Part shown: positions 1,662 to 63,499 of the stretch, one piece after another
Numbering within the stretch: the stretch's first letter is position 1
Layout of the letters: every line of letters starts with the position of its first letter
Source of the DNA: a virus
Reading direction: 5' to 3' (one strand)
IMG/VR virus record: IMGVR_UViG_3300027754_005427
Location: 1-64,000 of that record
DNA length: 64,000 bases
Notes under the pieces: model-generated
What the model was told of the DNA's origin: nothing
Databases searched by the model: none
The model's input: the letters and a program-made list of their open reading frames with translations, nothing else
Program-made: the position numbers and the translations under genes

Positions 1662-2927
1662 TTATTGTAAAATTTTAAGTCCTATAACAGGAGCTATTTC
1701 TGATAAATATTTAATATTATTTTTGCTTAAAAAAGGCTTATCAGATAAAGCTTCTTCTAATGATTCTTTGATATTTTTCAAGAAGTAATCAAAATGTTCT
1801 TGTAATGCAGACTTAAGTGCTTTTCCATGTTTAACAACTATTTCATAAACATTAATAAGATAATTAAAAATATTATCAGATGTAAACATATCTTCATAGA
1901 ATTCGTTAGCCCAAAAATAACTCTTTAAATAATAAACGGAATCAAGGTTTTGATTTTTTGATAGAATTTCCAATTGTTCTATTTTATCTTGATTATTTAT
2001 TGCTTTAAGAAACGCATCAATAATACTATCTTCTGCATATGAGTTGTTGTTTAATTCAAACAATTTATCTAATGGTAACGCATAATCTTTAGGTACTGCT
2101 TTTGCCCCGAACCATTTATCTGCATTTTTAGATCCTTCTATGTTTATTATTTTTAGTAATTCTTTTTTTAAAAAAGGAGCATTGGTTAAGTATTTATCAA
2201 CATAAAATTTTAATTGAGATACAGCTTTAATATTATTAGCCTTCCAGTCTTCTGAATCTTTTTTACCTTTAGAAGAATAAATTGTTCTGTGGTTTCCGCT
2301 TTTTCTATTAATAATTTCAATAAAGTCTAGCAGATCATTATCTAACAAAGGTTTTGCAGCTTGTTCCATAAAATCTACAAGTTTATTAATTAAAGATGTT
2401 GCATCAATAGTTTCAAAGAATTGTGCCCATGATCCTGTAGCTCTAGAAACAGAAACACTTTTTGTCAATTGATGAGTGGCAGATTGTCCTAGTTCAAAAT
2501 CAGGTAATTCTTGGCCAGTTGTAAAGCCAGTTTTTACTAGATCTACATCAAGTTTTTGTCCTATTTCTTTTTCAGCATTAGAAATATGTTTATCAATGAA
2601 TGTACCTTCTTCTTTATAAGGAATGGGTTTTAATCCATTTTTTTGAATTATTTGTATTAAGTTTTTAATAAACCCATAATCTGCTCCTGAACCAGCATGA
2701 AGGGGAGAATTTCTAATTATGCCTACATGAGTTGACTTAGCACCAATTGAAGAGTAGCCATTTTTTTCAGCTTTAAAAGCAGCTATAAAGTATTCAGAAT
2801 GTCCTTTATCCCATTGATAATAAAAATCAAAAGAAATGACATCTTTAGCAGGAATCAAAACAGCATCATCTTTTTGCCATTTTACGATTATATTTTCAGA
2901 TAGTATTAGCCATTGTTTAAAGTTCAT
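1662..2927 (-). CDS. Tagged protein of unknown function (putative packaged virion protein)
   Basis: A 421-residue protein that begins MNFKQWLILSEN, the N-terminal tag shared by at least 17 proteins here, with an L-S-E candidate prohead-protease site at residues 9-11. After it come a beta-rich region (KWQKDDAVLIPAKDV, FIAAFKAEKNGY), a Gly/His-rich stretch (STHVGIIRNSPLHAGSGAD) and a mainly helical C-terminal half. I recognise no domain. No Shine-Dalgarno is present; TGTAAATA at 2932-2939 sits 4 nt before the ATG, like the other tagged genes. It is the last gene of a minus-strand array of tagged genes that runs down from 12521. Confidence 0.75.
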   Translation of the reverse strand: MNFKQWLILSENIIVKWQKDDAVLIPAKDVISFDFYYQWDKGHSEYFIAAFKAEKNGYSSIGAKSTHVGIIRNSPLHAGSGADYGFIKNLIQIIQKNGLKPIPYKEEGTFIDKHISNAEKEIGQKLDVDLVKTGFTTGQELPDFELGQSATHQLTKSVSVSRATGSWAQFFETIDATSLINKLVDFMEQAAKPLLDNDLLDFIEIINRKSGNHRTIYSSKGKKDSEDWKANNIKAVSQLKFYVDKYLTNAPFLKKELLKIINIEGSKNADKWFGAKAVPKDYALPLDKLFELNNNSYAEDSIIDAFLKAINNQDKIEQLEILSKNQNLDSVYYLKSYFWANEFYEDMFTSDNIFNYLINVYEIVVKHGKALKSALQEHFDYFLKNIKESLEEALSDKPFLSKNNIKYLSEIAPVIGLKILQ

Positions 2928-2953
2928 AGTTTATTTACAATTATTTGTTAAGT

Positions 2954-3943
2954 TTATCTTTGTTTAAGCATCCAATCATCTGGAAGTCCATTTTCTTTAG
3001 CAATTTCAATATCTGAAGGATACCAAACATTGGTTGCATTTTTTGTGTTATTAATGAAGTCTTGGTATGCTGCTCTTCTAGCATTTAAAAAATTCTTAAA
3101 TTCAGGAGGATATTTTCCAAGTTCTTTGTATCTTGTTGCAAGTTCTTTTGTTTGTTTGTTGCTTTTTAATTCAGGTTGAAGCTCAATCCAATCATCTGGA
3201 AGTCCATTTTCTTTGGCAACATCTATGTCTGAAGGATACCAAGTATGTTTTGATTTAATGTTATTAATGAAGTCTTGATATGCCATTCTTTTTTTATTTA
3301 AAAAACTCTTAAATTCAGCAGGATATTTTCCAAGTTCTTTATATCTTATTGCAATTGCTTTTACTTTTTGATTGCTCATTAGTTCATTTTGTCTTTCCAT
3401 CCAATTATCTGGTAGTCCATTTTCTTTGGCAACATCTATGTCTGAAGGATACCAAGTATATCTTGATTTAATGTTATTAATTAAGTCTTGGTATGCGATT
3501 CTTTTTTTATTTAAAAAATTCTTAAATTCAGCAGGATATTCTCCAGTTCCAAGTTCTTTGTATCTTATTGCAAGTTCTATTACTTTTTGGTTACTTGCAA
3601 GTTCACGAGCAAGTTCATGATTAGAATTTTTAGAATCAAACAAGCCAGACATATTGTTTTTATCTAAGATATCTTCATCTGTTGGGAAATAATTAATATT
3701 AATAATTTTAGCAGTTTTTCTGCTTTGCAAGAAGTCTGCTAGCATAACTTCTTCTGAATCAATATTATAAGAAATTTCACCGCTTGTAGTATGAGTACCA
3801 CCAAGTATTGATGTTTTTTTAGAAGGATTTCTGTTGTGGGTTTTTATCCAATCACATAACTTTTGAGTTAATTGATTAGATTCTGCTTCTTTAAAAGGGT
3901 CATGTATACTTTCAGAGATTAATAGCCAGCTTTTAAAGTTCAT
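2954..3943 (-). CDS. Tagged protein with three helicase-associated-like repeats
   Basis: A 329-residue protein with the tag MNFKSWLLISES. From about residue 110 it holds three ~75-residue repeats of the form [AT]xRYKELGxYPxEFKxFLNxxRxAYQDxINN, then WYPSDIxxAKENGLPDxW. A more divergent unit lies near residues 25-85 (LCDWIKTHNRNPSKK, LADFLQSRK). The pattern aromatic - G - P - FL...KR - AY - W - GLP - W resembles the helicase-associated (HA) repeat, a small helical nucleic-acid-binding module; this is only a pattern match. The same unit occurs in the proteins at 9588-11255 and 11271-12521. AATAAATA (3948-3955) lies 4 nt before the ATG. Confidence 0.75.
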   Translation of the reverse strand: MNFKSWLLISESIHDPFKEAESNQLTQKLCDWIKTHNRNPSKKTSILGGTHTTSGEISYNIDSEEVMLADFLQSRKTAKIININYFPTDEDILDKNNMSGLFDSKNSNHELARELASNQKVIELAIRYKELGTGEYPAEFKNFLNKKRIAYQDLINNIKSRYTWYPSDIDVAKENGLPDNWMERQNELMSNQKVKAIAIRYKELGKYPAEFKSFLNKKRMAYQDFINNIKSKHTWYPSDIDVAKENGLPDDWIELQPELKSNKQTKELATRYKELGKYPPEFKNFLNARRAAYQDFINNTKNATNVWYPSDIEIAKENGLPDDWMLKQR

Positions 3944-3946
3944 AGT

Positions 3947-5659
3947 TTATTTATTTTGTTCTTTTTGTTTTTGTATTAAATAATCTTTAACTGTTTGTGT
4001 TTTTGCATTATTGATAGTAAATGGGAAATCTTTTGGTTGTAGTATAAAACTTTTTTCATCAAAAAAGTATTTTAAAACATCAAGTTCTCCAGAAAGACTT
4101 GCAGATTTTACATCGCCAGATGTGATATTTTTCTTTTTTTCATCAATCAAATATTTTAAACCATTAAGGTTTCCATGCATTGCTGCAATACTAACAGCGT
4201 TATAAGGTATTGAGATATTTTTTTCATCAATTAAGTATCTTACAATATCAATATTATTTTGTCTAAAAGCATCTTCAATATCACTGTGTAGTACATTAAT
4301 ATTTTTTTCTTCAATCAAGTATTTTAAAATATCAAGTTTGCCATATTTTACTGCATACATAATTGGATTAGAAGAATCTAATATAATGCCGTGTTTTACA
4401 AAATATTTTAATAGGTCAAGTCTATCTGCCTTTATTGCGTGACCAGCAGCATAATATGGGACGCTTTGTCCTTTTTCGATCAATTCTGTTACTAGAGAAA
4501 AGTCTTCAATTTGAAGAGCTTTGTGAATTTTTAATTCATCAGTAACATTATAAAATTCTTCTTGTTGTTTTGGTGTAAATAAATTAAATTCTTCTTTAGA
4601 AAGATCTTCATGTTGTCTATCTAATATCAATCTATTATGCAGATAAATATCTTTTAATTCTTTTTTAGCAATAACTTTTTTAAGCTGATAATTTTCAAGT
4701 TTCAAACCAGTTTTAACATATTGTTTTAATAATGAAGCAATATTGTTATCATGTATATAATCAAATTGAGGATCTGAAAGTCTATGTACTCTTCCTATGT
4801 AATTAGATTTTTCTATTGGTGATAGTGCTTTAAACCAATTTAAATTATAATTTGTTTTACCTAATTTTGCCTGTTCAGCTTCTTCTTCTGGTGATTTTGG
4901 TATATTTTTGAATACAGTTGTATCAATTCCTTTTTCTTTTAAATATTTAAAGTATAAATCTGGGTCTGATGTTATTCTTTTTGGTGTAGTTTGATAAGGA
5001 TCTTGCATAGTTTTTGCTGTGTCGTTTTTTCGATCTGTAAGTTCAATACCATGTTCTGTTACATCAACTACAGTAATTGCAAGGTCATCAGTTCTTGTGT
5101 TATCATAAACGAAGTAGAAAGTTGATACTTTAGTATCTCTGTAAGTTTGGAACATATTATGTGGGCCGTGTCTTGATATACAGAAAGATTCACCTTTGCC
5201 GAGTACGATACATTGATTTGCTGAGTTTGCCAGATAAACCTTTATCTTAAGGTCTGGTGAATGTTCGATTACTTCTTGGCCTTCAAGATCGCCTTGTATT
5301 GGTGTATTGATAACTTTGCCTTCATGGGTTAAAACATCAATTATTTCAGTCCAATGGATAAAAGATTTAAAATCGCCATCAACAGTAAGGTCATCTTTTA
5401 CTGTAATGATGTTCATTTTTTGGTTTTTTACAAGATTGGCATAATCTTCCAAGTAGTCTTTTAGAACCACAATTTGTGGCTCTTCTTGGTTGTAGTAGAA
5501 TGCAGCGATGGGAAGTAATTGACCTTGTAATTTTTCTGGTATATTTGTTGGAATGATAGATTTTATTTTTTTAAATAAATCATCGTTGCCGAGAAGTTCT
5601 TTGGCAATGTCGCTTGATTTCTTTGCTTCAGTTATTAATAGCCAGCTTTTAAAGTTCAT
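3947..5659 (-). CDS. Tagged ankyrin-repeat protein with C-LG-C head module
   Basis: A 570-residue protein. The tag is MNFKSWLLITEA. Residues ~20-340 form a head shared along its length with the proteins at 24685-27126 and 27130-29886; its core is C-I-V-L-G-K-G-x-x-F-C-I-S (about residues 150-165) followed by TFYFVYDNTR. Residues ~375-560 hold about six ankyrin-like repeats (DLLKYFVKHGI, KLDILKYLIEEKNI, NIDIVRYLIDEKNI, NLNGLKYLIDEK, ELDVLKYFFDEK). Ankyrin repeats bind other proteins, so a host-directed role is plausible if the protein is packaged. CATAAATA at 5665-5672 lies 5 nt before the ATG. Catalytic activity is unknown. Confidence 0.8.
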   Translation of the reverse strand: MNFKSWLLITEAKKSSDIAKELLGNDDLFKKIKSIIPTNIPEKLQGQLLPIAAFYYNQEEPQIVVLKDYLEDYANLVKNQKMNIITVKDDLTVDGDFKSFIHWTEIIDVLTHEGKVINTPIQGDLEGQEVIEHSPDLKIKVYLANSANQCIVLGKGESFCISRHGPHNMFQTYRDTKVSTFYFVYDNTRTDDLAITVVDVTEHGIELTDRKNDTAKTMQDPYQTTPKRITSDPDLYFKYLKEKGIDTTVFKNIPKSPEEEAEQAKLGKTNYNLNWFKALSPIEKSNYIGRVHRLSDPQFDYIHDNNIASLLKQYVKTGLKLENYQLKKVIAKKELKDIYLHNRLILDRQHEDLSKEEFNLFTPKQQEEFYNVTDELKIHKALQIEDFSLVTELIEKGQSVPYYAAGHAIKADRLDLLKYFVKHGIILDSSNPIMYAVKYGKLDILKYLIEEKNINVLHSDIEDAFRQNNIDIVRYLIDEKNISIPYNAVSIAAMHGNLNGLKYLIDEKKKNITSGDVKSASLSGELDVLKYFFDEKSFILQPKDFPFTINNAKTQTVKDYLIQKQKEQNK

Positions 5660-5709: not shown

Positions 5710-5857
5710 CTAATTACAAAGATCAATAAATTTTTTCAAATAATCATTAGCATCTTTAGAATCACAGTCATCTTCAACTAGTGCTTTTTTATTTTTATTT
5801 GTACAAATAAAAGAAACTATTTCTAAAGCTGTTGGATTATTTTTTAAAATTAAGCAT
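5710..5857 (-). pseudogene. Out-of-frame continuation of the 5850-7751 gene
   Basis: Directly after the stop of the 5850-7751 gene, another minus-strand frame is open for about 50 codons and ends with TAG at 5710-5712. It has no start codon. It reads GCLILKNNPTALEIVSFIC and continues through KKALVEDDCDSKDANDYLKKF to IDLCN. The composition fits the upstream protein, and it fills an otherwise empty 190-bp gap in a region where genes are 2-20 bp apart. I infer a frameshift (mutation, sequencing error or recoding) near 5850-5870, next to an A/T run. Confidence 0.5.
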
Positions 5858-7751
5858 CCTCATCTAAAACAGAAAGAAAATTAGTCACACAACTATTTTC
5901 TTCTTCAAATTTTCCATGTAATGCATTGATGTATTTTATTTTATTACTATCAATATGAATATTTTCAAATATTTCTTTTAAACCACCATTTTTACAAAGT
6001 TTGGCTAATGTATTTTTGTCTGAATAATGAATTAAGTTGCTAACACCACTCTCTCCATTGCCATCAATCCCACAAATTAGCATATGCAATAGCACATCTG
6101 GATTTTCAACAATGTCAAAGTTTTCGTTTTCTCCTTTTAACAACTCAAGTATATGATAATTTCCAAATACATTGCTCCAATTGTATTCATTCCATGTATC
6201 TGCAAAAACAAATTCTAATAATTCCAAGAAGTCTTTTTGACTTGGCGACTTTTGGATGAAGTAATAAATATTATCTGCGTCATATGGGGTTATAACTTTT
6301 ATAAATTTTACATATTCTTCTCTGATGCTGTTGTGGAATGACTCAAAAATTGTATTAGCTTCATTAGTAGATGTTTTTTCTATTGTTGAAAACTCAAATT
6401 TACTTAAAAACTCAAAAATTTGTTTTTCACAGTTTTCGTAACAATTTAAAATAATTTTTCTACATATTACTTCTAACGGAAATAGTACTTTTCCATTGCC
6501 ATCTTGAATCTTTGTAATTTTTACAAAAGTAGAAATGCTAATTCCTTTTGGCAATATTTCATTTGCTTGATCTATAAACCAACTATGATTTTTGATTTTA
6601 TCATAATAATTATTTGCTAGATTAAACACAAAGTTATCTTTATCACCATCCCAATATTCAATCATTGGATAAAAGACATCATTTTCCAGAGAAGTCTTTG
6701 TGTTTTCTTCAATATAATTTAAAGTTAAATTTATGATCTCGTTGTGATTTTCTAAATTCATGCTTAAAATATGTTTCAAGTTATATAAAGTTTCCATTGG
6801 ATTTTCTTTTAATTGTTCTTTTATAGATTCTCTTATATTATCAGGCTTAGATTTTAAAAATCTATTAAAAGGCTTTACTTCTTTCCCATCTGAATTATGA
6901 AAAGGAACTTCTTTTGGAATTGATTGTTTTAAAAAATCATATTCAAGAGGTAACAAAAAACTAACTTCATTATCTTTACTGTCTTTAAATTGTACATTTT
7001 TTCTTTCTATTCCTTTTTCATCAATAGTTGGCGGGGAATTTTTGAGAGAAAACTGGTATCTTGGTTTATTATTATATAAAAGAATATAAACTGGTACATA
7101 TTTGTATTCTTTATGATAATCACCAGTTGCTGTAGCTGTACACCAATCTGAGCTTCTACCTAAAGAGCAAAACACTCTGTGTCTTGAATTTATTTCATCT
7201 TCAGTATTATTTACTACAGGTGGAACATAATACAAGGAAAATCCATCATGCTCTGCAACTAGTTTTTTGTACTTAGAATCTGCATCAATCGTAATTCCTT
7301 TTTTTGAAAATAATTTATTTTTTGTATTAGAGATTTTGTTTTCTTCTTGTGATTTTTCAATTATATTATTTTTAGCTAATTTTCCTAATCCAAACCATCC
7401 TATTGAACCAATTGTTCTTTTAGTTATTTTGCCATTTGAAATCATTTCTATAGTAACATCTATAGCTCTTTTTAAATCTTCTAATCTAAAGTCTGGTTTT
7501 GTTTTAAAGAATCCTAAAGAAAACCTAAACCAATTTTTATCTTCCAAAACTTGAGTTCTCCCAGAAATTTTTGGTTCAAGACTTTTTTCGTGAATTGCAT
7601 TAGAAATTAGATTTTTAATCGTATCGTTTATCAATTCATACTGGATTAATTCTTTTTTTGGATCTATATATTTTACAAAATCATCCAACATATGATCGAA
7701 CATGTCATATATTAGCGATTCTTTTAGCAACCATTCTTTAAAATTTTGCAT
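5850..7751 (-). CDS. Tagged protein with WCTA-type module
   Basis: About 633 residues from the ATG at 7751, chosen because it gives the tag MQNFKEWLLKES; an in-frame ATG at 7823 would put 24 unrelated residues in front. Residues ~190-245 contain VFCSLGRSSDWCTATATGDY followed by VYILLYNNKPRYQFSL, the same C-x-L-G-x...W-C-T-A layout seen in several tagged paralogues. The rest is helical and lacks a recognisable domain. ATATATA precedes the ATG by 5-6 nt and there is no Shine-Dalgarno. The reading frame probably continued past the present stop (see 5710-5857). Confidence 0.7.
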   Translation of the reverse strand: MQNFKEWLLKESLIYDMFDHMLDDFVKYIDPKKELIQYELINDTIKNLISNAIHEKSLEPKISGRTQVLEDKNWFRFSLGFFKTKPDFRLEDLKRAIDVTIEMISNGKITKRTIGSIGWFGLGKLAKNNIIEKSQEENKISNTKNKLFSKKGITIDADSKYKKLVAEHDGFSLYYVPPVVNNTEDEINSRHRVFCSLGRSSDWCTATATGDYHKEYKYVPVYILLYNNKPRYQFSLKNSPPTIDEKGIERKNVQFKDSKDNEVSFLLPLEYDFLKQSIPKEVPFHNSDGKEVKPFNRFLKSKPDNIRESIKEQLKENPMETLYNLKHILSMNLENHNEIINLTLNYIEENTKTSLENDVFYPMIEYWDGDKDNFVFNLANNYYDKIKNHSWFIDQANEILPKGISISTFVKITKIQDGNGKVLFPLEVICRKIILNCYENCEKQIFEFLSKFEFSTIEKTSTNEANTIFESFHNSIREEYVKFIKVITPYDADNIYYFIQKSPSQKDFLELLEFVFADTWNEYNWSNVFGNYHILELLKGENENFDIVENPDVLLHMLICGIDGNGESGVSNLIHYSDKNTLAKLCKNGGLKEIFENIHIDSNKIKYINALHGKFEEENSCVTNFLSVLDEDA

Positions 7752-7814: not shown

Positions 7815-7837
7815 GTCAGCCACTGTTTAAAGTTCAT
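7805..7837 (-). pseudogene. Vestigial 10-codon tag ORF
   Basis: ATG at 7837 opens MNFKQWLTNY and stops with TAA at 7805-7807. It has the same upstream context as the functional tagged genes (GATAAATA at 7843-7850, 5 nt before the ATG) and overlaps the last codons of the 7827-9584 gene in another frame. It looks like the tag-and-promoter start of a lost or replaced gene; the actual next gene begins at 7751 with its own tag. Confidence 0.6.
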
Positions 7838-9584
7838 GTAGGTATTTATCTATTAGCTCTTGAATTTCTGGTGTTTTCTTTGTGTGATAGTGATTTAAAA
7901 CTTGTGCCATTTTTTGTTTATCTGGGAATTTATTTATGTATTCATTCGGAAAATCAAGCAGACGATTAATAGAAGTTAATTCGAGCTTGCTTATATTATC
8001 TGTTCCTAACAGCTTTGCTATATTTTCTTTGTTAACTGCATAATAAAGCAAAATATAAACACTCTCATTATCAAAATTTGTTTTATAATCTATGATTATT
8101 TCTGCCAGTTTGTCTTTGTCGATTGCAAAATGGAGCAAATTAGAAATATCAAACTCATAAATATTGCTTATATTATATGCTCCTAATAGTTTCGCTATAC
8201 TTGCTTTACTTTTTGCAAAATGAAGCAAATTATAAACATTGTTACTAGAAAGTTTTGTTTTGTATTTTATGATTATTTCTGCCGTTTTGTCTTTATCTTT
8301 AGAAGATTTAAGAAATTCAGCAACAGTACTATCAAAAAGCTTATTTAAGCTATACGCTCCTAATAGTTTTTCTATGCTTTCTTTATCAATTGCATGATAA
8401 AGTAAGTAATAAATTTTATTATCATTAACAACTTTATTACTTCCATATTCTGTATTTTTCTCAATGATTAATTTTGCTATTTCGTCTTTGTTAGTTACTT
8501 TATCAAGTAAAGTAGAAACATCTTTAGTAGAAATCGTTGGTTTGTTATTTAAAATAATTTTAGCCATATCGTCTTTGTCATGTGCAAATTCAAGTAAATA
8601 AAGAACAATAGCATCAGAAAGTTGTGGGTTCTTTTTAATTATTATTTTTGACATTTCGTATGTGTTTTTTGTATTTTTAAGTAACTGGTGAACATTGTCA
8701 TCGGAAAGATCTTGTTTATTTTTAATAACTAAATTTTCTATTTTTTCTTTGTCTTTTGCTTTATCAAATAGATATTCAATGTCTTCATCAGTAAGATATT
8801 TTATTTTTTCTGGTTTTGAATGATAGTTTACAAAATCTAAATCTGGTTTTAATTTGAGTAGTTCTTCTTTATTACTTAAATCATCTAATGAAAAATTATT
8901 TTTTGGTAAATACCCACCGCCCTTGATGGTTATTATTTTGTCATTTTTAAGTAATTCTATTATTGGTTGATGAAATTTTGGAGATGGTTTTGAATTTTTC
9001 ATACCTTTCATTTCGCCTAATATTCCTTTATTTTCGATAAAAGTAAGATTTGCTATATTTTGCGGATCTCTTAAAGATAGGATGTTATCTCCTTCTATAC
9101 CAGCAGCATTACCACAATGCCCACCACTTTTTGCTTCCATTTCGCACTTATAACGATCTAAGGAAACCCATCGCCAGCCTTTCCATTGAGATCCTAAATG
9201 AGATAAATCTATAAAAGTTTCAGCTTCTCTAGCTGGGATTGCTTGGTTTGCTTCTAATTCTTCGTGCCATTCATCTGATTCTTGTGTTAGTTGTTCAAGT
9301 GTGAAGTTTGGATCGGTTAAATTTAGTTTTTGGTAATTAGCCATTAAATAATCTTTAGTGGAATAAATGTGGGTTTGAAAGTTTGATTCTTTTGAATTAT
9401 AAAAGTTCCAAGTATAAAAGTTAATGAAAGTGGATTTGATGTTTTCTTTTATGTTGTGAGCGAAAGCATTTACAAGTTTTGTTACATTTGATTTAATTTG
9501 TTTTATTATTGGATCATTGGATTGCTTTAATAATTGAGCAATGTTTGTGTTTTCAGATAATAATAGCCAGCTTTTAAAGTTCAT
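7827..9584 (-). CDS. Tagged PcfJ-like-head protein with ~35-residue helical repeats
   Basis: A 585-residue protein. Tag MNFKSWLLLSEN. Residues ~130-245 contain KCEMEAKSGGHCGNAAG, NILSLRDPQN, NLTFIENKGILGEMKGMKNSKP: a C...GHCG...LRDP...TFIENKG...KG..N pattern that resembles PcfJ-like phage and plasmid proteins of unknown activity. Residues ~270-560 contain about ten ~35-residue alpha-helical repeats with the signature K[DE]xxAKIIIxxKxxLSxxxVxxLLxxAxxK, alternating with SIAKLLGAYNIS variants. Such solenoids usually bind proteins. Its last codons overlap the vestigial tag ORF. TATAAATA is present slightly further upstream of the ATG than in the others. Confidence 0.75.
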   Translation of the reverse strand: MNFKSWLLLSENTNIAQLLKQSNDPIIKQIKSNVTKLVNAFAHNIKENIKSTFINFYTWNFYNSKESNFQTHIYSTKDYLMANYQKLNLTDPNFTLEQLTQESDEWHEELEANQAIPAREAETFIDLSHLGSQWKGWRWVSLDRYKCEMEAKSGGHCGNAAGIEGDNILSLRDPQNIANLTFIENKGILGEMKGMKNSKPSPKFHQPIIELLKNDKIITIKGGGYLPKNNFSLDDLSNKEELLKLKPDLDFVNYHSKPEKIKYLTDEDIEYLFDKAKDKEKIENLVIKNKQDLSDDNVHQLLKNTKNTYEMSKIIIKKNPQLSDAIVLYLLEFAHDKDDMAKIILNNKPTISTKDVSTLLDKVTNKDEIAKLIIEKNTEYGSNKVVNDNKIYYLLYHAIDKESIEKLLGAYSLNKLFDSTVAEFLKSSKDKDKTAEIIIKYKTKLSSNNVYNLLHFAKSKASIAKLLGAYNISNIYEFDISNLLHFAIDKDKLAEIIIDYKTNFDNESVYILLYYAVNKENIAKLLGTDNISKLELTSINRLLDFPNEYINKFPDKQKMAQVLNHYHTKKTPEIQELIDKYLHEL

Positions 9585-9587: not shown

Positions 9588-11255
9588 TTATATATTTATA
9601 AAGTTTTTATTAATTAAAAATTGTTCAAATGTTTTTGTAGGTTCAACTAATTCTGTTGGGTTTGATTCTGCTAAATATTTAGCATACATTTTATCGTGAT
9701 ATTTTTTTCTATCATCTGGTACATCTGGATTTGCAAACAAATCGTCAAATTCATCATCGTGTCTTATAAAATTCAAAATTATATCTTCAAAGTTATTTTC
9801 ATTTTTCCAATATGGAATTACAAGTAATGGAAAACTTTTATTTAAACAATAATTATATTTTTTACGATCATTTTTTTGAATATATAAAAATTGTTTAAGA
9901 GCATCTTTTGCTATTTCTTGTTTTGTTTTACCTTCTCTTGATCCAAAGTATACTGGATAATAATGTTGTTCTCCATGATACTCCACGAAATATTCTTGAT
10001 CATCGTACTCGAATGAATAATCAAATCTAAAACATTGTCCAGTTGTGATATTGCATTCTTTATCTATATATTCAGAATCTACATCATCAAAATATTTATT
10101 TAATATTTTTCCTACTAATTTAGCAGGTTTTGAAATGCCTTTTTTATCAACAGGTAAATACCAACCTTTTGGCAATCCTGCTTCTTCACCAACTTTTTTA
10201 TCTGTTTTGTACCATTTACTACTAGTGTAATTTGTTTTATTTTTAAGGTCTTGATATGCTTTTCTTTTCTGATATAGAAAGTCACTGAGTGGATTGTTTG
10301 GTAGCGGATCTTCTTTGTCAGGATTTTTTTTATCATTAAAATGAATACCTAAATTTTTTAAGTTCTGATCATTTTTTATTTGGTTATTCAGAGAAGCTTT
10401 TGCAATTGCACAATCAGGACAATTACTACCGTTTGTTCTATTGTAAAGCGGTGCTTTCCATGTGTGTGTTTTATTTTCAAGGCATTTCCAACTTATCATT
10501 TTGTTACTTTTTGGCATTACATCACTAGGAGTAAGCTGCTCTCCGTCATCTTTTTTATTTTTAAATCCAAATTCATCTTTCCCATAATCCCATTCAGATA
10601 CCAATCTTTTATATCTAGCTTTATCAGGATTTGATTCATTTTCAGATAAGCCCTGTAAACTATTGTCTTTATTAATTCTTTTGTTTGTAATTGAACAATC
10701 AGGACAATTTTTACCATTTTTTCTATTGTCAATTCTTGCTTCCCATATGTGTCCTTCTTTACATTTCCAATTTATCATTTTGCTAGACGAGGTGGTTACA
10801 TCAGCAGGAGTAAGCTGTTCTCCGTCATCTTTTTTATTTTTAAATCCAAATTCATCTTTCTCATAATCCCATTCAGATACCAATCTTTTGTATCTAGCTT
10901 TTAAAACAGGATTTGATTCAGTTTCAGATAAAGCCTGTAAACTATTATCATCGCCAATTCTTTTGTTTGCACAAGTAGGACAATTTCTACCATTTGTTCT
11001 ATTGTTAAGCGGTGCTGGCCATGTGTGTTCTTTTTCACATTTCCAATTTATAATTTTCCTACTTCCTGGCGTTACATCACTAGGAGTTAATGTATTATTT
11101 TTTTTATCCCATTCAGATACCAGTCTTTTATATCTAGCTTTTAAATCAGATTCTGGTAAATTTTCAGATAAAGCCTGTAAACTATTTGTTTCAAGATATT
11201 TAGGTGAAAAGGACTTTGCCATTTCAGAGATTACTAGCCAGCTTTTAAAGTTCAT
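9588..11255 (-). CDS. Tagged zinc-ribbon / PD-(D/E)xK nuclease-like protein
   Basis: A 555-residue protein. Tag MNFKSWLVISEM. Residues ~35-290 hold three repeats of RYKRLVSEWD...LTPxDV...INWKCxxxHxWxAxLxNRxNGxNCPxC, which match the treble-clef zinc-ribbon family DUF4379. One helicase-associated-like unit follows (KRKAYQDLKN, GLPKGWYLP). The C-terminal ~170 residues look like a Vsr-type PD-(D/E)xK nuclease: FRFDYSFEYDDQEYFVEYHG then EQHYYPVYFGS, with D and E-Y-H-G-E-Q-H as candidate metal/catalytic residues, and LLVIPYW. A packaged nuclease could attack host DNA on entry (inference). TATAAATA (11260-11267) lies exactly 4 nt before the ATG. Confidence 0.75.
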   Translation of the reverse strand: MNFKSWLVISEMAKSFSPKYLETNSLQALSENLPESDLKARYKRLVSEWDKKNNTLTPSDVTPGSRKIINWKCEKEHTWPAPLNNRTNGRNCPTCANKRIGDDNSLQALSETESNPVLKARYKRLVSEWDYEKDEFGFKNKKDDGEQLTPADVTTSSSKMINWKCKEGHIWEARIDNRKNGKNCPDCSITNKRINKDNSLQGLSENESNPDKARYKRLVSEWDYGKDEFGFKNKKDDGEQLTPSDVMPKSNKMISWKCLENKTHTWKAPLYNRTNGSNCPDCAIAKASLNNQIKNDQNLKNLGIHFNDKKNPDKEDPLPNNPLSDFLYQKRKAYQDLKNKTNYTSSKWYKTDKKVGEEAGLPKGWYLPVDKKGISKPAKLVGKILNKYFDDVDSEYIDKECNITTGQCFRFDYSFEYDDQEYFVEYHGEQHYYPVYFGSREGKTKQEIAKDALKQFLYIQKNDRKKYNYCLNKSFPLLVIPYWKNENNFEDIILNFIRHDDEFDDLFANPDVPDDRKKYHDKMYAKYLAESNPTELVEPTKTFEQFLINKNFINI

Positions 11256-11270: not shown

Positions 11271-12521
11271 TTAAAGAATTTTATTAATTAAAAATTGTTC
11301 AAATGTTTTTGTAGGGTAAACTAATTCTGTTGGGTTTAATTCTGCTGGTTTTGATTTTGCTAAAAAATTTTCATATATTTTATCATGTTTAACTTTATAA
11401 TCTGATGGTACATTTGGAATTGCAAAAGTTTCGTTAAATTCATTTGTTTCCAAGAATTGTTTAATTCTACTTTTAATAATATCTGGGGTTTCATATAACC
11501 AATATGGAATTACTAAAAATGGAAGATTTTCTTTTACACAATGATCGTATTTTATTTTATCATTTCCTTGGATATATTCAAATTTATCAAGAGCATGTTT
11601 TGCTATTTCTTGGTCTGTCTTTTCTTCTGTTGAGCCAAAGTATACTGGATAATAATGTTGTCCACCATGAAATTCTAAATATTTTTTTCCATTATGTGTA
11701 ATCGAAAAATCAAATGGCAAACATATCTTGTTTTTACAAGCGTCATCTCTATGTTCTGTGTCATTTTCAATTTCAAGTTCTTTTAATATATTTGCTACTA
11801 ATTTTTCTCCAAGGGATTTTTCACCTGCTGGTTTTATTTCACGCCAATTACCTGGAAGTTCGTAAGGAAAATCTTCTTTATTCCAATTTTTAGATAATGC
11901 AACCATATCTGCCCAAGTTATATCATCTGATTCTTCATGTGGGTTTGGATTTCTTTTCTTATTAATTAGCCATAAGGCAAGACTTTTATCTTTTTTATCA
12001 GAGGTATGTTTCGAAGGACTTGCTCCATTTTTCCCATAATAGATTGCAAGTTCTTCTAATCTATCATTACTTTTTTGTTCATTTTTACTTTTTATTATTT
12101 CTATTTGAGAATCCATCCAATTGTTTGGCAGTCCATTTTTTTCAGCTACTTCTATGTCTGAAGGATACCAAGCAGAGTCTGAATTTTTTGTACCATCAGC
12201 CTTCTTGTAGCCTTTGTATGCTTTTCTTTTGTTATGTAAAAAATTCTTAAATTCAATAGGTAATTTAGCAAATCCTTTAGCTTTAATGTATTCGATTGCA
12301 AGTGCTTTTACTTTTTGGTTACTTGCAAGTTCAAGCTTATAAATTTTAGTATTAGTCAAATTTGGATTAGATAAATTTGCATTTAATGGAGGAATAGTTG
12401 TAGTCAACTTTGGATTAGATACACTTGTATTCAATGGAGGAATAGTAGAAGTCAAATTAGGATTAGATAGATTTATATCTTTTTCTTCTTCTTCAGATAA
12501 TAGCCAGCTTTTAAAGTTCAT
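11271..12521 (-). CDS. Tagged PD-(D/E)xK nuclease-like protein with HA-like repeats
   Basis: About 416 residues from the ATG at 12521 (tag MNFKSWLLSEEEE); an upstream in-frame ATG at 12557 would add 12 residues and misplace the tag. Residues ~15-55 carry three copies of SNPxLTxTIPPLN, a Pro/Thr-rich spacer. Two helicase-associated-like units follow (KNFLHNKRKAYKGYKK...WYPSDIEVAEKNGLPNNW; YGKNGASPSKH...ALWLINKKR). The C-terminal nuclease-like domain has LPFDFSITHNGKKYLEFHGG then QHYYPVYFGS, closely related to 9588-11255 but with G-Q-H in place of E-Q-H, which may affect catalysis. GATAAATA (12527-12534) is 5 nt before the ATG. Confidence 0.72.
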   Translation of the reverse strand: MNFKSWLLSEEEEKDINLSNPNLTSTIPPLNTSVSNPKLTTTIPPLNANLSNPNLTNTKIYKLELASNQKVKALAIEYIKAKGFAKLPIEFKNFLHNKRKAYKGYKKADGTKNSDSAWYPSDIEVAEKNGLPNNWMDSQIEIIKSKNEQKSNDRLEELAIYYGKNGASPSKHTSDKKDKSLALWLINKKRNPNPHEESDDITWADMVALSKNWNKEDFPYELPGNWREIKPAGEKSLGEKLVANILKELEIENDTEHRDDACKNKICLPFDFSITHNGKKYLEFHGGQHYYPVYFGSTEEKTDQEIAKHALDKFEYIQGNDKIKYDHCVKENLPFLVIPYWLYETPDIIKSRIKQFLETNEFNETFAIPNVPSDYKVKHDKIYENFLAKSKPAELNPTELVYPTKTFEQFLINKIL

Positions 12522-12568: not shown

Positions 12569-13231
12569 ATGTTAAAATTTAGAAATTGGCTCATGAGATT
12601 TGAATCTACAGAGATTGATTTAAACAATCCTCAACCATTACCAGTTATGTCTCTGAAATCATTATCTGATATTAAAGGAACAAAAGAGGAACGATTTTTA
12701 AAAGTAGCGAAAAGTGTTTCAGAAAAGTATAATCTTGCAAAACCAACAAGTTATTTAGACGGTGGATTTTATGCTAAAGTATATAATACAGAAGATCGTA
12801 ATTTAGTAATAAGGGTGGCGAGGAATGAAGAGTCTGAATGCGAAAAGAAGATAAATGAAAAAGAAATACAAGAAACAGGAGGTGTGGTTAAGGTATACCA
12901 TCAATATGAAGAAGATTACTATGACGAAGATTACGGTGAAGAAAATTACATTATAAGCTACAAAGAAAAAGTTGATACTAACTGGCTAGGGTATTTAAAA
13001 AAACAATATAATGAAATTTCAGAAGAATATAAAGTTTTAATAGATGTTATACAATGGAAATTATCATCTCAATCAGAATTTTACGCAAAACAAGGTCTTG
13101 AAATATTAAAAAAATACAAAGAAACTGATAATCTTGTGAATGCAGTAGAAGCTGGTATAAGTAGTGATGATTTGCATAAAGATAATATAGGCGTAAACAA
13201 GAGTGGCAATATAGTTGTTATTGATTGTTAA
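12569..13231 (+). CDS. Tagged protein-kinase-like protein
   Basis: A 220-residue protein. Tag MLKFRNWLMRFES. The body looks like a minimal protein-kinase/phosphotransferase fold: a Gly-rich loop (YLDGGFYAKVYNTED, ~residues 66-80), a beta-3-like strand (NLVIRVARNE), then near the C terminus DDLHKDNIGVNKSG and VVIDC, which correspond to the HxDxxxxN catalytic loop and the DFG strand. The protein stops right after the metal-binding Asp, as in some short phage kinase-like proteins. The usual beta-3 Lys appears to be Arg, so activity is uncertain. The 3' end overlaps the convergent gene by 14 bp. If packaged, it could phosphorylate host targets early in infection. Confidence 0.65.
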   Translation: MLKFRNWLMRFESTEIDLNNPQPLPVMSLKSLSDIKGTKEERFLKVAKSVSEKYNLAKPTSYLDGGFYAKVYNTEDRNLVIRVARNEESECEKKINEKEIQETGGVVKVYHQYEEDYYDEDYGEENYIISYKEKVDTNWLGYLKKQYNEISEEYKVLIDVIQWKLSSQSEFYAKQGLEILKKYKETDNLVNAVEAGISSDDLHKDNIGVNKSGNIVVIDC

Positions 13232-17969: not shown

Positions 17970-19688
17970 TTAATAAAATTTATATTTATTTGATCTACCA
18001 GTACCATTTTCAATAGAATCTATAACATATTCATATTTTTCTTTCATATATTTATTATCTTTAGATTCTTGTAATTTTTGTTGTAAAAATGGCAAAAATT
18101 GTTTCCCATTTTCTCCTAATCGAGCCAATGCAGTTCCTAATCCATCCATAAATAAATCATCGTTAAAATATGGTAATAAACGACTGTAAAATTTTATGAC
18201 AGTAGGTGTATCTGCATCTCCATTGCTTAAAAAACCAAGGATATGCTTGATGATTCCAAATGGCCCTCCCCAACTTTTATCTTTTTCAGCTTCATATATT
18301 TTTAAAAAGTATTCTGAAATTTCAACTAATTTACGAATTAAAGGTTCTGTTAATTTGCCTGTACCAGAAAAATCTAAAACAATATCAGTAATTTGACTGT
18401 AAGCTTCTGGTCTACCATATTCAGGATTGTTTATTTTTAAAGATGGATTGCTTGGGTCAAAAGATAAGATTGCATTAGTTGCTAAGTCTTTTTGAAGTTC
18501 TTTAAATTTTGGATTATCTCTAGCTAATTTTTCTCGATCATAAGTTCTTAAATTAGAAAATTCTTGGTTATTTAAAAGTTCGGGATATTTTAAAAATAAT
18601 TTTCTTTTGAAATCAGCAGCATAAAGATTGTATACAAAAGTATTGATAGTCCATTCAGAGTTTATTAAATTAATAAGCTTAGCTTTATTTTCTTCATCAA
18701 GGACTAAATTTGGATCAAGTAACTTTTGTAATATGTCTCTTGCAATTTCTGGTTCTCTTTTTTTTTCTAACATCTTAAACAGACCATCAGCTGTTTGGGG
18801 ATAAAATATTTTTGTCATATCTATGCGTTGTTTTCTAGCACTATCATCAGGGTCAGCAGTTCCAAATGTATCTGAATGCCAGCCACCTTTGCGAATATAT
18901 TTAGCTGGTTTTATTTTACCTTGTTTTGAATCAATCCATTTTTGAACTTGTTGTTCGAATCCATCTAAAGAATTTCCATAAACACTTTCTTCTAATACTG
19001 CTATTGATTTACCTGCTTTATTATCAAATCTACGGATAAGCACTCTTGCTAATGGTTTTTCAATATTTTTATCATCTTTAAGACAAAGATAAGCTATAAA
19101 TCCACCATTTTTTATTTCACAAAATACGCTTTCTCTGTTTGCTCCACCTTGAAGATTCATACATGATGTCCAATTACGATTAGTAGACATTGCAGCAATA
19201 TCTTCAGGAATGCTACTGAAGACTATCATATATGGTGATGTAGATTTAACTCCAACTCTATACTTAGACGAAGTGAATGTAGATAAAAGGCCTTTATAGT
19301 ATTCCTTGTTCCATTTTAATTCATCTTGATATTTTAAGTCTGAAATTTGTTTGTTTTCATAAGATGATTTTATTTTATTTTCTTCTTTTTTAGCTTCCAT
19401 TTCTAATATTTTTCCAATTTTCATTGGTCTTTTTGAAATTTTATCAGCAGCTAATCCTTTAGGATAATCTAATATTTCATACTTTTCATGGTCTTTAAAA
19501 TAGTTTTCTATATCTTTGTCAATTTTTGAATCTTCTGATTCTTCTGATTCAAATGGAATATAAACTCTGCCTTCTGTAGGAAACCAATTTTCAAATGCAA
19601 AAGATCTACTGTAAGAAGAAGATTTTATTTCATTTTCCCAGTTCTTAACATCTGTTTCAATTAACAATAGCCATTTTTTAAACTTCAT
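17970..19688 (-). CDS. Tagged protein with TSCM-type head and helical C terminus
   Basis: A 572-residue protein. Tag MKFKKWLLLIETD, with L-I-E as the candidate cleavage site. Residues ~160-225 read MIVFSSIPEDIAAMSTNRNW, TSCMNLQGG, then FIAYLC and PLARVLIRRF. This MSTxRxWTSCMNL...IAYL...ARVLIR signature occurs in conserved T4-like phage proteins of unknown function and parallels the W-C module of the other tagged proteins. The C-terminal ~280 residues are helical, with HEAT-like segments and repeated L-[NP]-P phrases. No catalytic motif is obvious. TATAAAT ends 2 nt before the ATG. Confidence 0.72.
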   Translation of the reverse strand: MKFKKWLLLIETDVKNWENEIKSSSYSRSFAFENWFPTEGRVYIPFESEESEDSKIDKDIENYFKDHEKYEILDYPKGLAADKISKRPMKIGKILEMEAKKEENKIKSSYENKQISDLKYQDELKWNKEYYKGLLSTFTSSKYRVGVKSTSPYMIVFSSIPEDIAAMSTNRNWTSCMNLQGGANRESVFCEIKNGGFIAYLCLKDDKNIEKPLARVLIRRFDNKAGKSIAVLEESVYGNSLDGFEQQVQKWIDSKQGKIKPAKYIRKGGWHSDTFGTADPDDSARKQRIDMTKIFYPQTADGLFKMLEKKREPEIARDILQKLLDPNLVLDEENKAKLINLINSEWTINTFVYNLYAADFKRKLFLKYPELLNNQEFSNLRTYDREKLARDNPKFKELQKDLATNAILSFDPSNPSLKINNPEYGRPEAYSQITDIVLDFSGTGKLTEPLIRKLVEISEYFLKIYEAEKDKSWGGPFGIIKHILGFLSNGDADTPTVIKFYSRLLPYFNDDLFMDGLGTALARLGENGKQFLPFLQQKLQESKDNKYMKEKYEYVIDSIENGTGRSNKYKFY

Positions 19689-45968: not shown

Positions 45969-46211
45969 TTATAATTCCTGATCTTTATGCCAATGTATTT
46001 TATGGTCGCCTCTAGTATGTTTTTTATGGTGAATAATACTTTTTTTTATAGGCATATGGCCTCTATTGCTGAAAAGTGTATCTGGCTGCACTTCACCTAA
46101 TTTGATTATAATTTTATCGCCTTTTGGAGCTTTAGGATTATCTAAATTAAACATTTTTTTCTTTTTGTTTTCGCTCATAATCAACCAGTTTTTAAAAGTT
46201 TGGCCAAGCAT
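45969..46211 (-). CDS. Small tagged basic protein
   Basis: An 80-residue protein. MLGQTFKNWLIMSENKK contains the tag with four extra N-terminal residues. The rest is basic and His-rich (KKSIIHHKKHTRGDHKIHWH), compatible with nucleic-acid or metal binding, like T4 internal proteins that are small and basic. The ATG is preceded by TTTATTAA without a clear octamer. It lies 20 bp downstream of nothing but the prepilin gene start, reading in the same direction. Confidence 0.6.
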   Translation of the reverse strand: MLGQTFKNWLIMSENKKKKMFNLDNPKAPKGDKIIIKLGEVQPDTLFSNRGHMPIKKSIIHHKKHTRGDHKIHWHKDQEL

Positions 46212-56390: not shown

Positions 56391-57350
56391 ATGAAATCAT
56401 TTATGGAATATGTACAACTGAAAAACGAAGGCTACTTTGATTTTTTCAAACCGAAAAAACCTGCTCCTGCTGGTGCTTCAACTGCTCCTACTGGTGCTTC
56501 AACTGCTCCTACTGGTGCTTCTGACAGAGAGAAAAAAAGAAAGCCTTTAGGTACTTATGATCCTTACACTGCCAAATATAGTCCTCTAACGAAAGATGGA
56601 CCAAGCTATGTAAATGATAAGCGTATGTCGCCTGATAAAGCAGCAGCAGCCGAAGATCAATATGATAAAAACAGTGCGACTGCATATCCTATAGAAAAAC
56701 AAGATCCTGGCATGAAAGCATTAATAGACCAGGGCAATGCTGTGGATAAATTTAAAAAATTAGAAGACGATATTAAATATGGAAGATTTTCGTACGATAC
56801 AAGCAATGTTCCAAAAATGATGCTTTTTATGTTGAATAATCATATGGATGGCAGCTATATGCCATTTTTCGGTTCTTTGGTAAAAAACAATGCGGTTAAA
56901 ATGATTCCATATGATCTCGCTTTGAGAACTATGGAATTAAACTTTGGAAATAACTCAAGTACGATGGCACTTAAATCTTTTCTCGCAAGACATCTTATGG
57001 AAAAAACTCCAAGTAAAATACAAGGTTTAGAATCATTGGAGTTAATCAGACAAAGTTTAGTATCAACTGATAAATGGGCAAAAAGAATTTTACATACACC
57101 TGATTTCTTACAACACATAAAAGAAGAAGATATAAAAGACATTTTGTTGAAATTCTTTGAAAGAAGACCAGACTTGGCGAAGAAATATTACGAAGAAAAT
57201 GGCGAAAGAATGCGACTTAATCAAAAGTACAAACAAGCAAATGACTCAAGATATCAGAAACCAAATGATATGGAAAATTTAATCTATTCCATGTTTGGCG
57301 GAAAAAACGAATCATTCAAGACACATAAAAAATCACTATTCGAATGGTAA
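56391..57350 (+). CDS. Tagged-like protein with Ala/Pro linker
   Basis: A 319-residue protein. MKSFMEYVQLKNEGYFDF is a divergent tag (MKxFxEYxxxxNE). A PAPAGASTAPTGASTAPTGA linker follows, then a soluble helical body (KFKKLEDDIKYGRFSYDTSN, LKSFLARHLMEKTPSKIQG). GGGAG lies 9 nt before the ATG, unlike most tagged genes. It is followed 3 bp later by another tagged gene. No domain is recognised. Confidence 0.6.
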   Translation: MKSFMEYVQLKNEGYFDFFKPKKPAPAGASTAPTGASTAPTGASDREKKRKPLGTYDPYTAKYSPLTKDGPSYVNDKRMSPDKAAAAEDQYDKNSATAYPIEKQDPGMKALIDQGNAVDKFKKLEDDIKYGRFSYDTSNVPKMMLFMLNNHMDGSYMPFFGSLVKNNAVKMIPYDLALRTMELNFGNNSSTMALKSFLARHLMEKTPSKIQGLESLELIRQSLVSTDKWAKRILHTPDFLQHIKEEDIKDILLKFFERRPDLAKKYYEENGERMRLNQKYKQANDSRYQKPNDMENLIYSMFGGKNESFKTHKKSLFEW

Positions 57351-57353: not shown

Positions 57354-57677
57354 ATGAACTTTAAAGAATGGCTACAAAATCGTGATCCCGAAATGTTGAA
57401 TGAAGGCAAAAAACCATTCAAAAATTTCAACAAAGAAAAAAACCATCCAGAAGGTGGACTTAAACCATCATATGCCAAAAAATTAGGTATTCACGCAGGT
57501 ATTGAAACTAAGCGTGAAGCCGAAAGAAAAGGCGGTGTTGATAAAATGTCTAAAAAAACAAAAGCTAGAAGAAAATCATTTTGTGCAAGAATGTGTAAAG
57601 CAGGAACAGAAAAAAGTAGAAATGATCCTGAAAGCAAACAAAGAGCAGCTTTGAGAGTTTGGAAGTGCAGATGCTAG
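57354..57677 (+). CDS. Tagged DUF6321-like basic protein
   Basis: A 107-residue protein. Tag MNFKEWLQNRDPEMLNEGKK with a possible L-N-E site. The body HPEGGLKPSYAKKLG, ARRKSFCARMCKAG and ESKQRAALRVWKC matches DUF6321, a basic phage protein of unknown function (P-E-G-G-L..., R-R-K-S-F-C-A-R-M..., A-L-R-x-W-x-C). It is very basic, like T4 internal proteins that bind packaged DNA. The gene starts 3 bp after the previous stop. Confidence 0.7.
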   Translation: MNFKEWLQNRDPEMLNEGKKPFKNFNKEKNHPEGGLKPSYAKKLGIHAGIETKREAERKGGVDKMSKKTKARRKSFCARMCKAGTEKSRNDPESKQRAALRVWKCRC

Positions 57678-59064: not shown

Positions 59065-59150
59065 TTAATCTTACAAACATAAAAATTAATATCATCTGAC
59101 AAATAATAATTTCTTATTAAATATTTAATAGTAACTAATTTTATCAAATG

Positions 59151-59897: not shown

Positions 59898-59911
59898 TAT
59901 TAAACCTCTTT

Positions 59912-60742: not shown

Positions 60743-61411
60743 TTAAGTGTCTAAATTTAATTTTTTATTTTTTTCTAATTCTTGTGTGTAAGTTATAGGT
60801 GAAGGAAGACCACTTTGCTTAGTTGAAACAAGTTTTAAGTTAAACCTTTGAGCTATTTGTTCAAAATTAGGTATTTTTTTTCCTATTTCTGGCGAATAAT
60901 AAAGTGTATCCCATATAATTTCTTTTCCAAAAACAAGTGCTTCATCGTAATGAGAGCGAGTAGGATTGAGTGGAGTAATTGGAAGTGATTCTGTAGAATT
61001 GTCGTCTAAAAGATTTGTAGATACATCTTTTGCATAGTAATATTCAATTCGCCCAATACCAGAAATAACAAGTTCTGTATTCCACACACCTTTAGCTTTT
61101 TCGCCAATAGAAACAGAAATTTGTTTGATGCTATTTATTATATTGTATATTCTTTCTTCAAAGTCATCTAACGCAATCGTTTTGTAAACTTTAACTTTAT
61201 TATTATACTTCTTATTGATTATCGCAGCCCTGCCTCTTGCTTTTTGCTCCATTTCCTTGGCTTGTTTTGGATTTTTGTAGGCATGGTCAGGATTAGAATT
61301 CCAAGAAATAATTTTTTCTTTATCTTTTTTAGAATTAGGAACTTGCGGAGTCCTATTGAAAAGATCTTCTTTTATTTGAAAACTTTCCATCCATTTCACA
61401 AATGATTTCAT
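60743..61411 (-). CDS. Tagged protein of unknown function, flanked by direct repeats
   Basis: A 222-residue protein. MKSFVKWMESFQIKED is a divergent tag with I-K-E as the candidate site. The body has a basic segment (KEMEQKARGRAAIINKKYNN), VKVYKTIALDDFEERIYNII, and a C-terminal RSHYDEALVFGKEIIWDTLY. No family is recognised. CATAAATA (61416-61423) lies 4 nt before the ATG. A perfect 27-bp direct repeat flanks the gene, which suggests gain by recombination. Confidence 0.65.
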   Translation of the reverse strand: MKSFVKWMESFQIKEDLFNRTPQVPNSKKDKEKIISWNSNPDHAYKNPKQAKEMEQKARGRAAIINKKYNNKVKVYKTIALDDFEERIYNIINSIKQISVSIGEKAKGVWNTELVISGIGRIEYYYAKDVSTNLLDDNSTESLPITPLNPTRSHYDEALVFGKEIIWDTLYYSPEIGKKIPNFEQIAQRFNLKLVSTKQSGLPSPITYTQELEKNKKLNLDT

Positions 61412-62580: not shown

Positions 62581-62931
62581 TTAACCATTCCAATATTTGA
62601 CTGGAATTAGTCTTTTGGGAAAATGTTTCAAAGCTATGGCAATACGATGATGTCCATCAGTTAAAGTTTGATTTTCATCCTTATCAACATGAATTTCAAT
62701 TGGAGTCTTAATTCCATCTTTTAAAATCTTATCAAGTAAACCTGTTTTTTTGGCATTATCATATTTAAAATCCAACAGCTTTTTGTCATCACCATTAGCA
62801 AAATCAAATCTTCCACGAAGATCATCGTGATCTTCAAAACTAACCGAACCAATTATTTCTTTGGCAGACAAAGATTTTGGCAAATGTTCAAATTGCGTAT
62901 TTTTGTTTTCTAAAAATTCTTTAAATCTCAT
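62581..62931 (-). CDS. Tagged ParB/sulfiredoxin-fold-like protein
   Basis: About 116 residues from the ATG at 62931, which gives the tag MRFKEFLENKN; an upstream ATG at 62946 would add MINNY. LDKILKDGIKTPIEIHVDKD then TLTDGHHRIAIALKHFPKRL matches the ParB N-terminal/DNase-like fold with its D-G-H-H-R motif. Members are nucleotide-binding or nuclease-like. Here only this domain follows the tag. GATAAATA (62937-62944) is 5 nt before the ATG. Confidence 0.72.
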   Translation of the reverse strand: MRFKEFLENKNTQFEHLPKSLSAKEIIGSVSFEDHDDLRGRFDFANGDDKKLLDFKYDNAKKTGLLDKILKDGIKTPIEIHVDKDENQTLTDGHHRIAIALKHFPKRLIPVKYWNG

Positions 62932-62936
62932 GTAAT

Positions 62937-63041
62937 TATTTATCATAAAAATATCAAGAAAATCTTAAAATAATCTAATATATATTAAATAATTTTTAGT
63001 TAAAAGAATTTTAATATTATTTTTAATATAAACAATAAATA
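62937..63041. promoter_or_regulatory. Divergent late-promoter-like pair
   Basis: GATAAATA on the minus strand (62937-62944) and AATAAATA on the plus strand (63034-63041) each lie 5 nt before the ATG of a tagged gene (62931 and 63047). The ~90 bp between them are AT-rich, without other visible sites. Confidence 0.45.
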
Positions 63042-63046
63042 ATATT

Positions 63047-63499
63047 ATGAAATTTAAAGATTATGTTGAAAAAAGAGATCTGCTTGAAGCTAACTGGTGG
63101 GAAGACGATAAAGAAACTCTTGGAAAAATCAAAGAAATAATAGCAGGTGTAGTAATGAAGTCTGGTAAAACTCCAGATGAATACAAAAAGATAACAGAAT
63201 CATTGTATGAACTTTTATATTCTTTTTATAGATCAATAAAAATTATAAAAGAAAAAGAATCTAAGGATAGTAGCTTTTCTACTTTGAAAAAAAATGGTTT
63301 ACTTGATATGACTAAAGATATTGAAAATAATAAAAATATAAAAAAAGCTATTATGAATAAATTAAACAATGATGGTATTGTGTCTAAAATTGAAAAAGAA
63401 ATAGTAACAGCAGTAGAAAAAGAAATAGAAAATGAAAATATGTCAGACGCAAAAAGATATGCAGATGGCAAAGATCAATCTAATAACGCTTTTAGATAA
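63047..63499 (+). CDS. Tagged helical protein
   Basis: A 150-residue protein. MKFKDYVEKRDLLEANWWED is a divergent tag with L-L-E as the candidate site. The rest is helical and Lys/Glu-rich (ITESLYELLYSFYRSIKIIK, IEKEIVTAVEKEIENENMSD), probably coiled-coil. Function is unknown. AATAAATA lies 5 nt upstream of the ATG. It is convergent with the GT25-like gene, 4 bp away. Confidence 0.65.
   Translation: MKFKDYVEKRDLLEANWWEDDKETLGKIKEIIAGVVMKSGKTPDEYKKITESLYELLYSFYRSIKIIKEKESKDSSFSTLKKNGLLDMTKDIENNKNIKKAIMNKLNNDGIVSKIEKEIVTAVEKEIENENMSDAKRYADGKDQSNNAFR

Follow-up and report, generated by a model that had tools for sequence, protein, structure and literature searches.

The window, the whole stretch of DNA analysed here, comprises bases 1-64000 of an 86,926-base virus record (G000), an 86.9-kb fragment from an uncultured phage related to the T4-like huge phages. 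Many of its genes open with a similar short peptide, the tag or leader, ahead of bodies that differ from gene to gene (Table 1). The initial annotation had counted at least 17 such genes, and all 17 listed starts are true open frames on the implied strand, with a leader of the [FY]xx[WFY][LIVM] type. A blind pattern applied to all window ORFs (M, up to 3 residues, F/Y, 2 residues, W/Y/F, an aliphatic residue, and E within 10) returned 17 tagged genes, namely 16 of those listed and an eighteenth, unlisted gene at 21341-21805 with the leader MKTFEIYMIEED. The gene starting at 46211 (MLGQTFKNWLIMSEN) escaped this pattern because its lead is longer. A genome-wide search for further tags had been proposed; over the 86,926 bases of the record, the blind pattern adds just that eighteenth gene, with no match in the final 23 kb. 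Looser patterns also matched the HNH-like ORF 46260-46655, whose start is hydrophobic; we judged it to be a false positive.

Table 1 Genes of the window that start with the tag, with the leader, the residue that follows it and the features of each protein.
Position	Strand	Length (aa)	Class	Leader	Next residue	Features
1662..2927	-	421	tagged	MNFKQWLILSE	N	homologue is a tagged 704-aa protein in G007
2954..3943	-	329	tagged	MNFKSWLLISE	S	internal repeats; linked to 9588/11271 family
3947..5659	-	570	tagged	MNFKSWLLITE	A	FCIS/WCTA-type domain and ankyrin repeats (PF12796, 2.4e-15)
5850..7751	-	633	tagged	MQNFKEWLLKE	S	WCTA-type domain; tagged homologue in G006
7827..9584	-	585	tagged	MNFKSWLLLSE	N	N-terminal domain and helical repeats
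9588..11255	-	555	tagged	MNFKSWLVISE	M	DUF4379 zinc fingers (PF14311, 2.1e-42) and endonuclease-like part (phrog_559, 1.1e-22)
11271..12521	-	416	tagged	MNFKSWLLSE	E	endonuclease-like (phrog_559, 2.6e-13)
12569..13231	+	220	tagged	MLKFRNWLMRFES		weak kinase match (phrog_18305, 3.6e-5); no nearby [LIVMF]xE
17970..19688	-	572	tagged	MKFKKWLLLIE	T	body also in jumbo phages Lu11, Atu_ph07 and LR756504
21341..21805	-	154	tagged	MKTFEIYMIE	E	not in the initial list
24685..27126	+	813	tagged	MNFNFQEWLLILE	E	FCIS-type domain
27130..29886	+	918	tagged			paralogue of 24685..27126
45969..46211	-	80	tagged	MLGQTFKNWLIMSE	N	longer lead
56391..57350	+	319	weaker tag	MKSFMEYVQLKNEG		tag kept in 88% identical relatives
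57354..57677	+	107	tagged	MNFKEWLQNRDPEMLNE	G	
60743..61411	-	222	weaker tag	MKSFVKWMESFQIKE	D	
62581..62931	-	116	weaker tag	MRFKEFLENKNTQFE		DGHHR motif; ParB-like, weak
63047..63499	+	150	weaker tag	MKFKDYVEKRDLLE	A	tag kept in G001 relative

Counted over called starts with a slightly wider pattern, the tag occurs at 18 of 103 gene starts, a number that may include the false positive 46260-46655, compared with 4 of 215 internal methionines (p=1.1e-6). Most tags had been described as carrying [LIM]-x-E within 14 residues, and the slightly broader [LIVMF]xE indeed lies within that distance in 13 of the 17 listed tags and at residues 15-17 in those of 57354 and 60743; it is absent near the starts of 12569 and 56391. 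Leaders with [LIVMF]xE are about 8-17 residues long, and four or five tags in the window are weak. Several tags in the 1.6-12.5 kb cluster have most codons in common, so part of their likeness reflects recent local duplication or exchange.

The bodies were initially called unrelated, which is overstated: they do form about 13 families, but 24685, 27130 and 3947 share a domain of ~360 aa (41-45% identity; the first two are paralogues), and 2954, 9588 and 11271 are linked to one another. In several tagged proteins, a variable head domain is joined to ankyrin or helical repeats. Among the proposed cargo identities, ankyrin holds for 3947, the nuclease is better described as endonuclease-like (9588 and 11271), the kinase reading of 12569 corresponds to a weak match, and the ParB-like reading of 62581 goes no further than its motif and weak matches. 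A domain whose core reads FCIS or WCTA recurs in 3947-5659, 5850-7751 and 24685-29886, and also in another contig (L257:10177-12051); by eye, it resembles PcfJ-type domains. It has no Pfam match, and its structure model is poor (pLDDT 67), with no PDB match at E<=0.001. A tblastn search with 24685-27126 and two tagged proteins of relatives gave no match in cultured phages.

Other genes of the window deserve mention in their own right. The gene at 44998-45948 (-) encodes a DUF1559 pseudopilin with an N-methylation motif (PF07596, 1.8e-39; PF07963, 2.1e-9). This family is typical of Planctomycetota, a possible hint at the host. At least five RCC1-repeat proteins, encoded at 49154-50533 and in the final 12 kb of the record (L002), lie beside a collagen-like GxT-repeat protein and tail-collar-like proteins; these are probably fibre or adhesin genes. 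This phage genome also encodes a SET-domain protein (44188-44934 (-); PF00856, 1.7e-11), an untagged astacin-like metalloprotease (39971-40723 (+); PF01400, 1.5e-8) and a secreted-looking protein (33854-34642 (-)) with many near-identical GGGFNQ repeats, whose repeat region differs between G000 and G001. Genes resembling those for glycosyltransferases, methyltransferases and sulfotransferases are numerous in 13218-23387 and 41723-60490, as would suit glycan synthesis.

Tags and cargo in related phages

The tag is not confined to the window. Two relatives, G001 (101 kb, up to 96% nucleotide identity to the record) and G003 (165 kb, with 38 of the 103 record proteins in common, median 81%), carry 18 and about 22-26 tagged genes, respectively, and tagged genes make up about 4-17% of the genes in relatives. 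A degenerate DNA pattern for MNFKxWL[LIVMF] matches at least 119 viral-contig stretches, many with several tagged genes. The two full records behave alike, with 25 of 350 genes tagged in G006 (251 kb) against 2 of 684 internal methionines, and 31 of 820 in G007 (511 kb) against 5 of 1535. Altogether, enrichment of the tag at gene starts is present in five genomes or fragments. It is absent from the first 400 kb of Atu_ph07, though S77 is present there, and from the first 50 kb of RaK2, while the first 50 kb of P-SSM2 contain no tag. The 636-kb phage LR756504 displays only a related F..F[LI]NE set (p=0.064 for the strict pattern). Given Atu_ph07 without enrichment and LR756504 with only a related set, the expansion is a property of some lineages.

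Tag and body are separable. A NUDIX hydrolase body is tagged in L131 and L155 and untagged in L181 (58-65%); a 2H-like body is tagged in L143 and untagged in the G001 relative, the ortholog of 34650-35027 (-) of the window; and a tRNA nucleotidyltransferase body is tagged in G003 and G006 and untagged in W01. Likewise, one C39 peptidase of G003 is tagged, and that of the window (32321-32833 (-)) is not. Further tagged cargo in relatives includes a NIF-type phosphatase, an AAA/zeta-like kinase, a SNF2-type helicase and a PARP-like protein whose match to PF00644 (1.8e-4) is below the cut-off of that family and for which no PDB sequence match was obtained. Across contigs, 379 tagged bodies, some false positives included, fall into 213 single-linkage families.

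The DNA ahead of the tags also has features in common. In G000, G001, G006 and G007, tagged genes more often have TATA[AT]A no more than 24 nt from the start codon, an enrichment that could partly reflect tagged genes being operon-first more often and that is not seen in G003, and Shine-Dalgarno-like motifs are rarer before tagged genes. Along 1662-63499 of the window, a TATAAATA-like element ends a few bases before tagged start codons. The T4 late promoter is TATAAATA, which the TATA[AT]A element resembles, and the upstream signals could fit late expression, possibly from near-leaderless or leaderless mRNAs. A TATA-like element so often placed right before the start codon, the scarcity of Shine-Dalgarno-like motifs and the codons common to several neighbouring tags are also what one would see if the shared start were mainly a DNA-level element, either a promoter/start region or a recombination site serving gene exchange, with the peptide as a by-product. 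We give this explanation hardly any weight, since the amino-acid pattern is kept across genes and phages in many different peptides, with variable spacing of the E site.

Head genes, protease and capsid cut site

A gp21-like protease, which the initial annotation had advised looking for, was not found in the window's own 86.9-kb fragment: Pfam gave no S77 (gp21) or Gp23 match in G000 or in G001-G003, which says little because all four are fragments. Of 23 tag-bearing contigs, 10 do have S77 above the cut-off, and among the 9 that exceed 140 kb it is present in 7. Where head genes are present in relatives, they include those for a gp21-type protease (S77), a gp22-like scaffold and a gp23-like capsid protein. 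In G006, the head genes stand in T4 order around the protease (phrog_207, 1.5e-49), its neighbours being scaffold-like and gp23-like, and tagged genes cluster near them (9 of 34 genes versus 16 of 316 elsewhere, p=1.8e-4).

The same association appears in a sample chosen by capsid protein alone and not by tag, for which 80 loci were returned and the 79 newly numbered ones counted. In these, tagged genes number 96 of 907, against 5 of 3249 internal methionines, and occur in 44 of the loci; homologous genes from related loci inflate the p-value of this comparison but leave the roughly 70-fold gap between the two rates untouched. In all 32 distinct capsid proteins checked, [IM]NE followed by xxT stands directly before the conserved mature region. 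From the T4 precedent, this conserved [IM]NE appears to be the end of the capsid-protein propeptide. The closest link of the window lineage to such head genes is a 7.7-kb contig (L342) that contains the protease gp21, scaffold gp22 and capsid gp23 together with a C39-peptidase gene, whose product has 93% protein identity to that of 32321-32833; judged by sequence, the link consists of one shared, possibly mobile gene. As far as sequences can establish them, the tag, its enrichment, its modularity and, in relatives, the co-occurrence of head genes with a matching capsid-protein site are secure.

Proximity to head genes could also mean that the tag marks parts of the prohead core, which would build the prohead and then be degraded or kept as structure, none of them being an injected effector. 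In G006 and other MCP loci, small featureless tagged genes do flank the head genes, and the T4 core proteins gp22, gp67 and gp68 are cut by gp21 (PMC9026906). Nevertheless, most large tagged bodies of the window lie far from head genes and have ankyrin, nuclease or enzyme-like domains, to which the cargo of relatives adds NUDIX, C39, PARP-like, SNF2 and kinase domains, and an NMNAT enzyme with such a leader sits in mature virions (PMC9602691). As a general explanation, we therefore consider it unlikely.

A T4-type leader and its possible role

T4 IPII and IPIII start with MKTYQEFIAE and IPI with MKTFKEFTSTTTPVSTITEA, as read from T4 DNA. Mutants of IPIII indicated that ten residues suffice, with positions 4 and 7 mattering most for targeting and positions 8 and 10 governing processing (PMC9026906). 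These mutation-sensitive positions 4, 7, 8 and 10 correspond to the [FY], [WFY], [LIV] and E of the phage tag. The per-residue frequencies at the core positions are partly forced by the selecting pattern, and the independent evidence is the shuffling test only, in which [LIVMF]xE occurs in 189 of 260 tags compared with a mean of 96 and a maximum of 119 in shuffled ones.

Cyanophages provide a link to virions. In S-SM1, the putative cytidylyltransferase T4-GC190 (L262:48256-49419) starts with MKKFSAFLNEA, and a proteomic study detected it in purified virions (PMC3037559). Its relatives start with MKSFSQFLTE (P-SSM2), MKKFSDFLSE (ACG-2014d) and MKSFLQFLKE (S-SCSM1). The S-SCSM1 homologue, named NMNAT, was detected by mass spectrometry in the virion proteome, and its authors thought it unlikely to be structural and discussed both virion carriage and carry-over (PMC9602691). 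The tag pattern merely leans towards virion proteins in S-SCSM1 (2 of 48 versus 1 of 241). A CTS-like leader would explain why NMNAT/cytidylyltransferase has repeatedly been found in cyanophage virions.

In some nucleus-forming jumbo phages, proteins are sorted into a compartment, and a short, amphipathic-looking leader could in principle send proteins to a membrane, a phage-made compartment or another site in the infected cell, in a manner unconnected with the virion. This seems very improbable to us, as such a signal would not be expected to contain an acidic [LI]xE site like that of the capsid-protein junction, and the S77/gp23 head-gene association, the match to T4 residues and the cyanophage mass spectrometry all point to the head.

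Capsid targeting, the central element of the initial reading, thus gains strong support from the T4 residue match, from the gp21-type protease and matching capsid cut site of relatives, and from the tagged cyanophage enzyme in virions. To call it a new injection system went too far: the principle is that of the known T4 CTS, with much more cargo, of larger size and greater variety. In our assessment, the leader probably belongs to a greatly expanded T4-type capsid-targeting system, serving PARP-like, NUDIX, C39-peptidase, nuclease, kinase-like and ankyrin proteins. Late in infection, the aromatic pair F-x-x-[WFY] would let tagged proteins bind the prohead core, and a gp21-type S77 protease would cut after the [LI]xE-type site during prohead maturation, the freed bodies staying in the head with the DNA. 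We infer this packaging and cleavage with good support. Many bodies might then enter the next host by ejection and take effect ahead of phage gene expression, an effector role suggested solely by analogy with T4 IPI-III and Alt, and some small tagged proteins encoded beside head genes may instead be structural core components.

A literature search for the tag in huge phages, with subscription journals outside its scope, retrieved no paper describing it. The concept of the T4 CTS and T-even Ips is known; what appears to be new, by that search, is the scale, together with a probable effector content and a tag that seems to serve as a general address label. More tentatively, and with somewhat less than even confidence, we propose that a widespread group of T4-related huge phages possesses a general head-loading code, in which a leader of ~10 residues suffices for a protein to be packed and delivered. 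Each genome might thereby hold some 25-40 exchangeable, pre-made effectors, many built as tag, enzyme and repeats and reaching about 100 kDa, as an injected arsenal for counter-defence and take-over. With a readable packing label, candidate injected proteins can be listed from among the genes of huge phages annotated as "hypothetical protein"; such a label also offers a genome-only route to new anti-defence proteins and makes the question of injection by giant phages directly testable. Natural leaders, with cargoes beyond the small T4 IPs, also suggest themselves for phage-based protein delivery.

Comparison with known systems

Three other groups of phage proteins resemble the tagged ones in part. 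MuF-fused and polyvalent proteins likewise include ART, NUDIX and 2H domains, for which packing in heads and injection are predicted, but they are tied to heads by fusion or genome context, without a short cleavable tag (PMC5512222, PMC9503650); fusion to MuF, portal or another head domain is not a feature of our proteins, as Pfam gave no such match in those scanned. The ejection proteins of phiKZ and SPN3US are also numerous head proteins, some of them having propeptides that a prohead protease cuts after xE; these propeptides are mostly longer than 100 residues, end in AxE or SxE and include no single shared short leader (PMC5694885), whereas the leaders described here are short and end in [LIVMF]xE. 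T4-GC190/NMNAT is closer, being an enzyme of a T4-like phage with an F-x-x-F-L-x-E leader that is found in virions. Such proteins number one or two per cyanophage genome, and the available portions of the two papers do not remark on the leader (PMC3037559, PMC9602691).

The nearest system is that of T4 IPI-III and Alt. Both have a short N-terminal leader with paired aromatics followed by an aliphatic residue and xE, a leader common to unrelated bodies and a variable gene set. An S77 protease belongs to the T4 system and, here, is encoded by 10 of the 23 tag-bearing contigs and by L342. More precisely, the leaders described here span at most 20 residues, have aromatics at i and i+3 and then an aliphatic residue, mostly end in an [LI]xE-type site and precede otherwise unrelated bodies, as in a T4-type CTS. 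The T-even Ip family has at least 10 members (PMC12373910). T4 has few and mostly small cargoes (about 8-20 kDa, plus Alt), whereas about 18 to 40 are found per contig here, many of them multidomain, far larger than the T4 IPs and up to 918 aa, so that the size and diversity beyond the T4 set noted in the initial annotation are borne out. The leaders differ as well, with W preferred at the second aromatic position and a variable distance to the E site.
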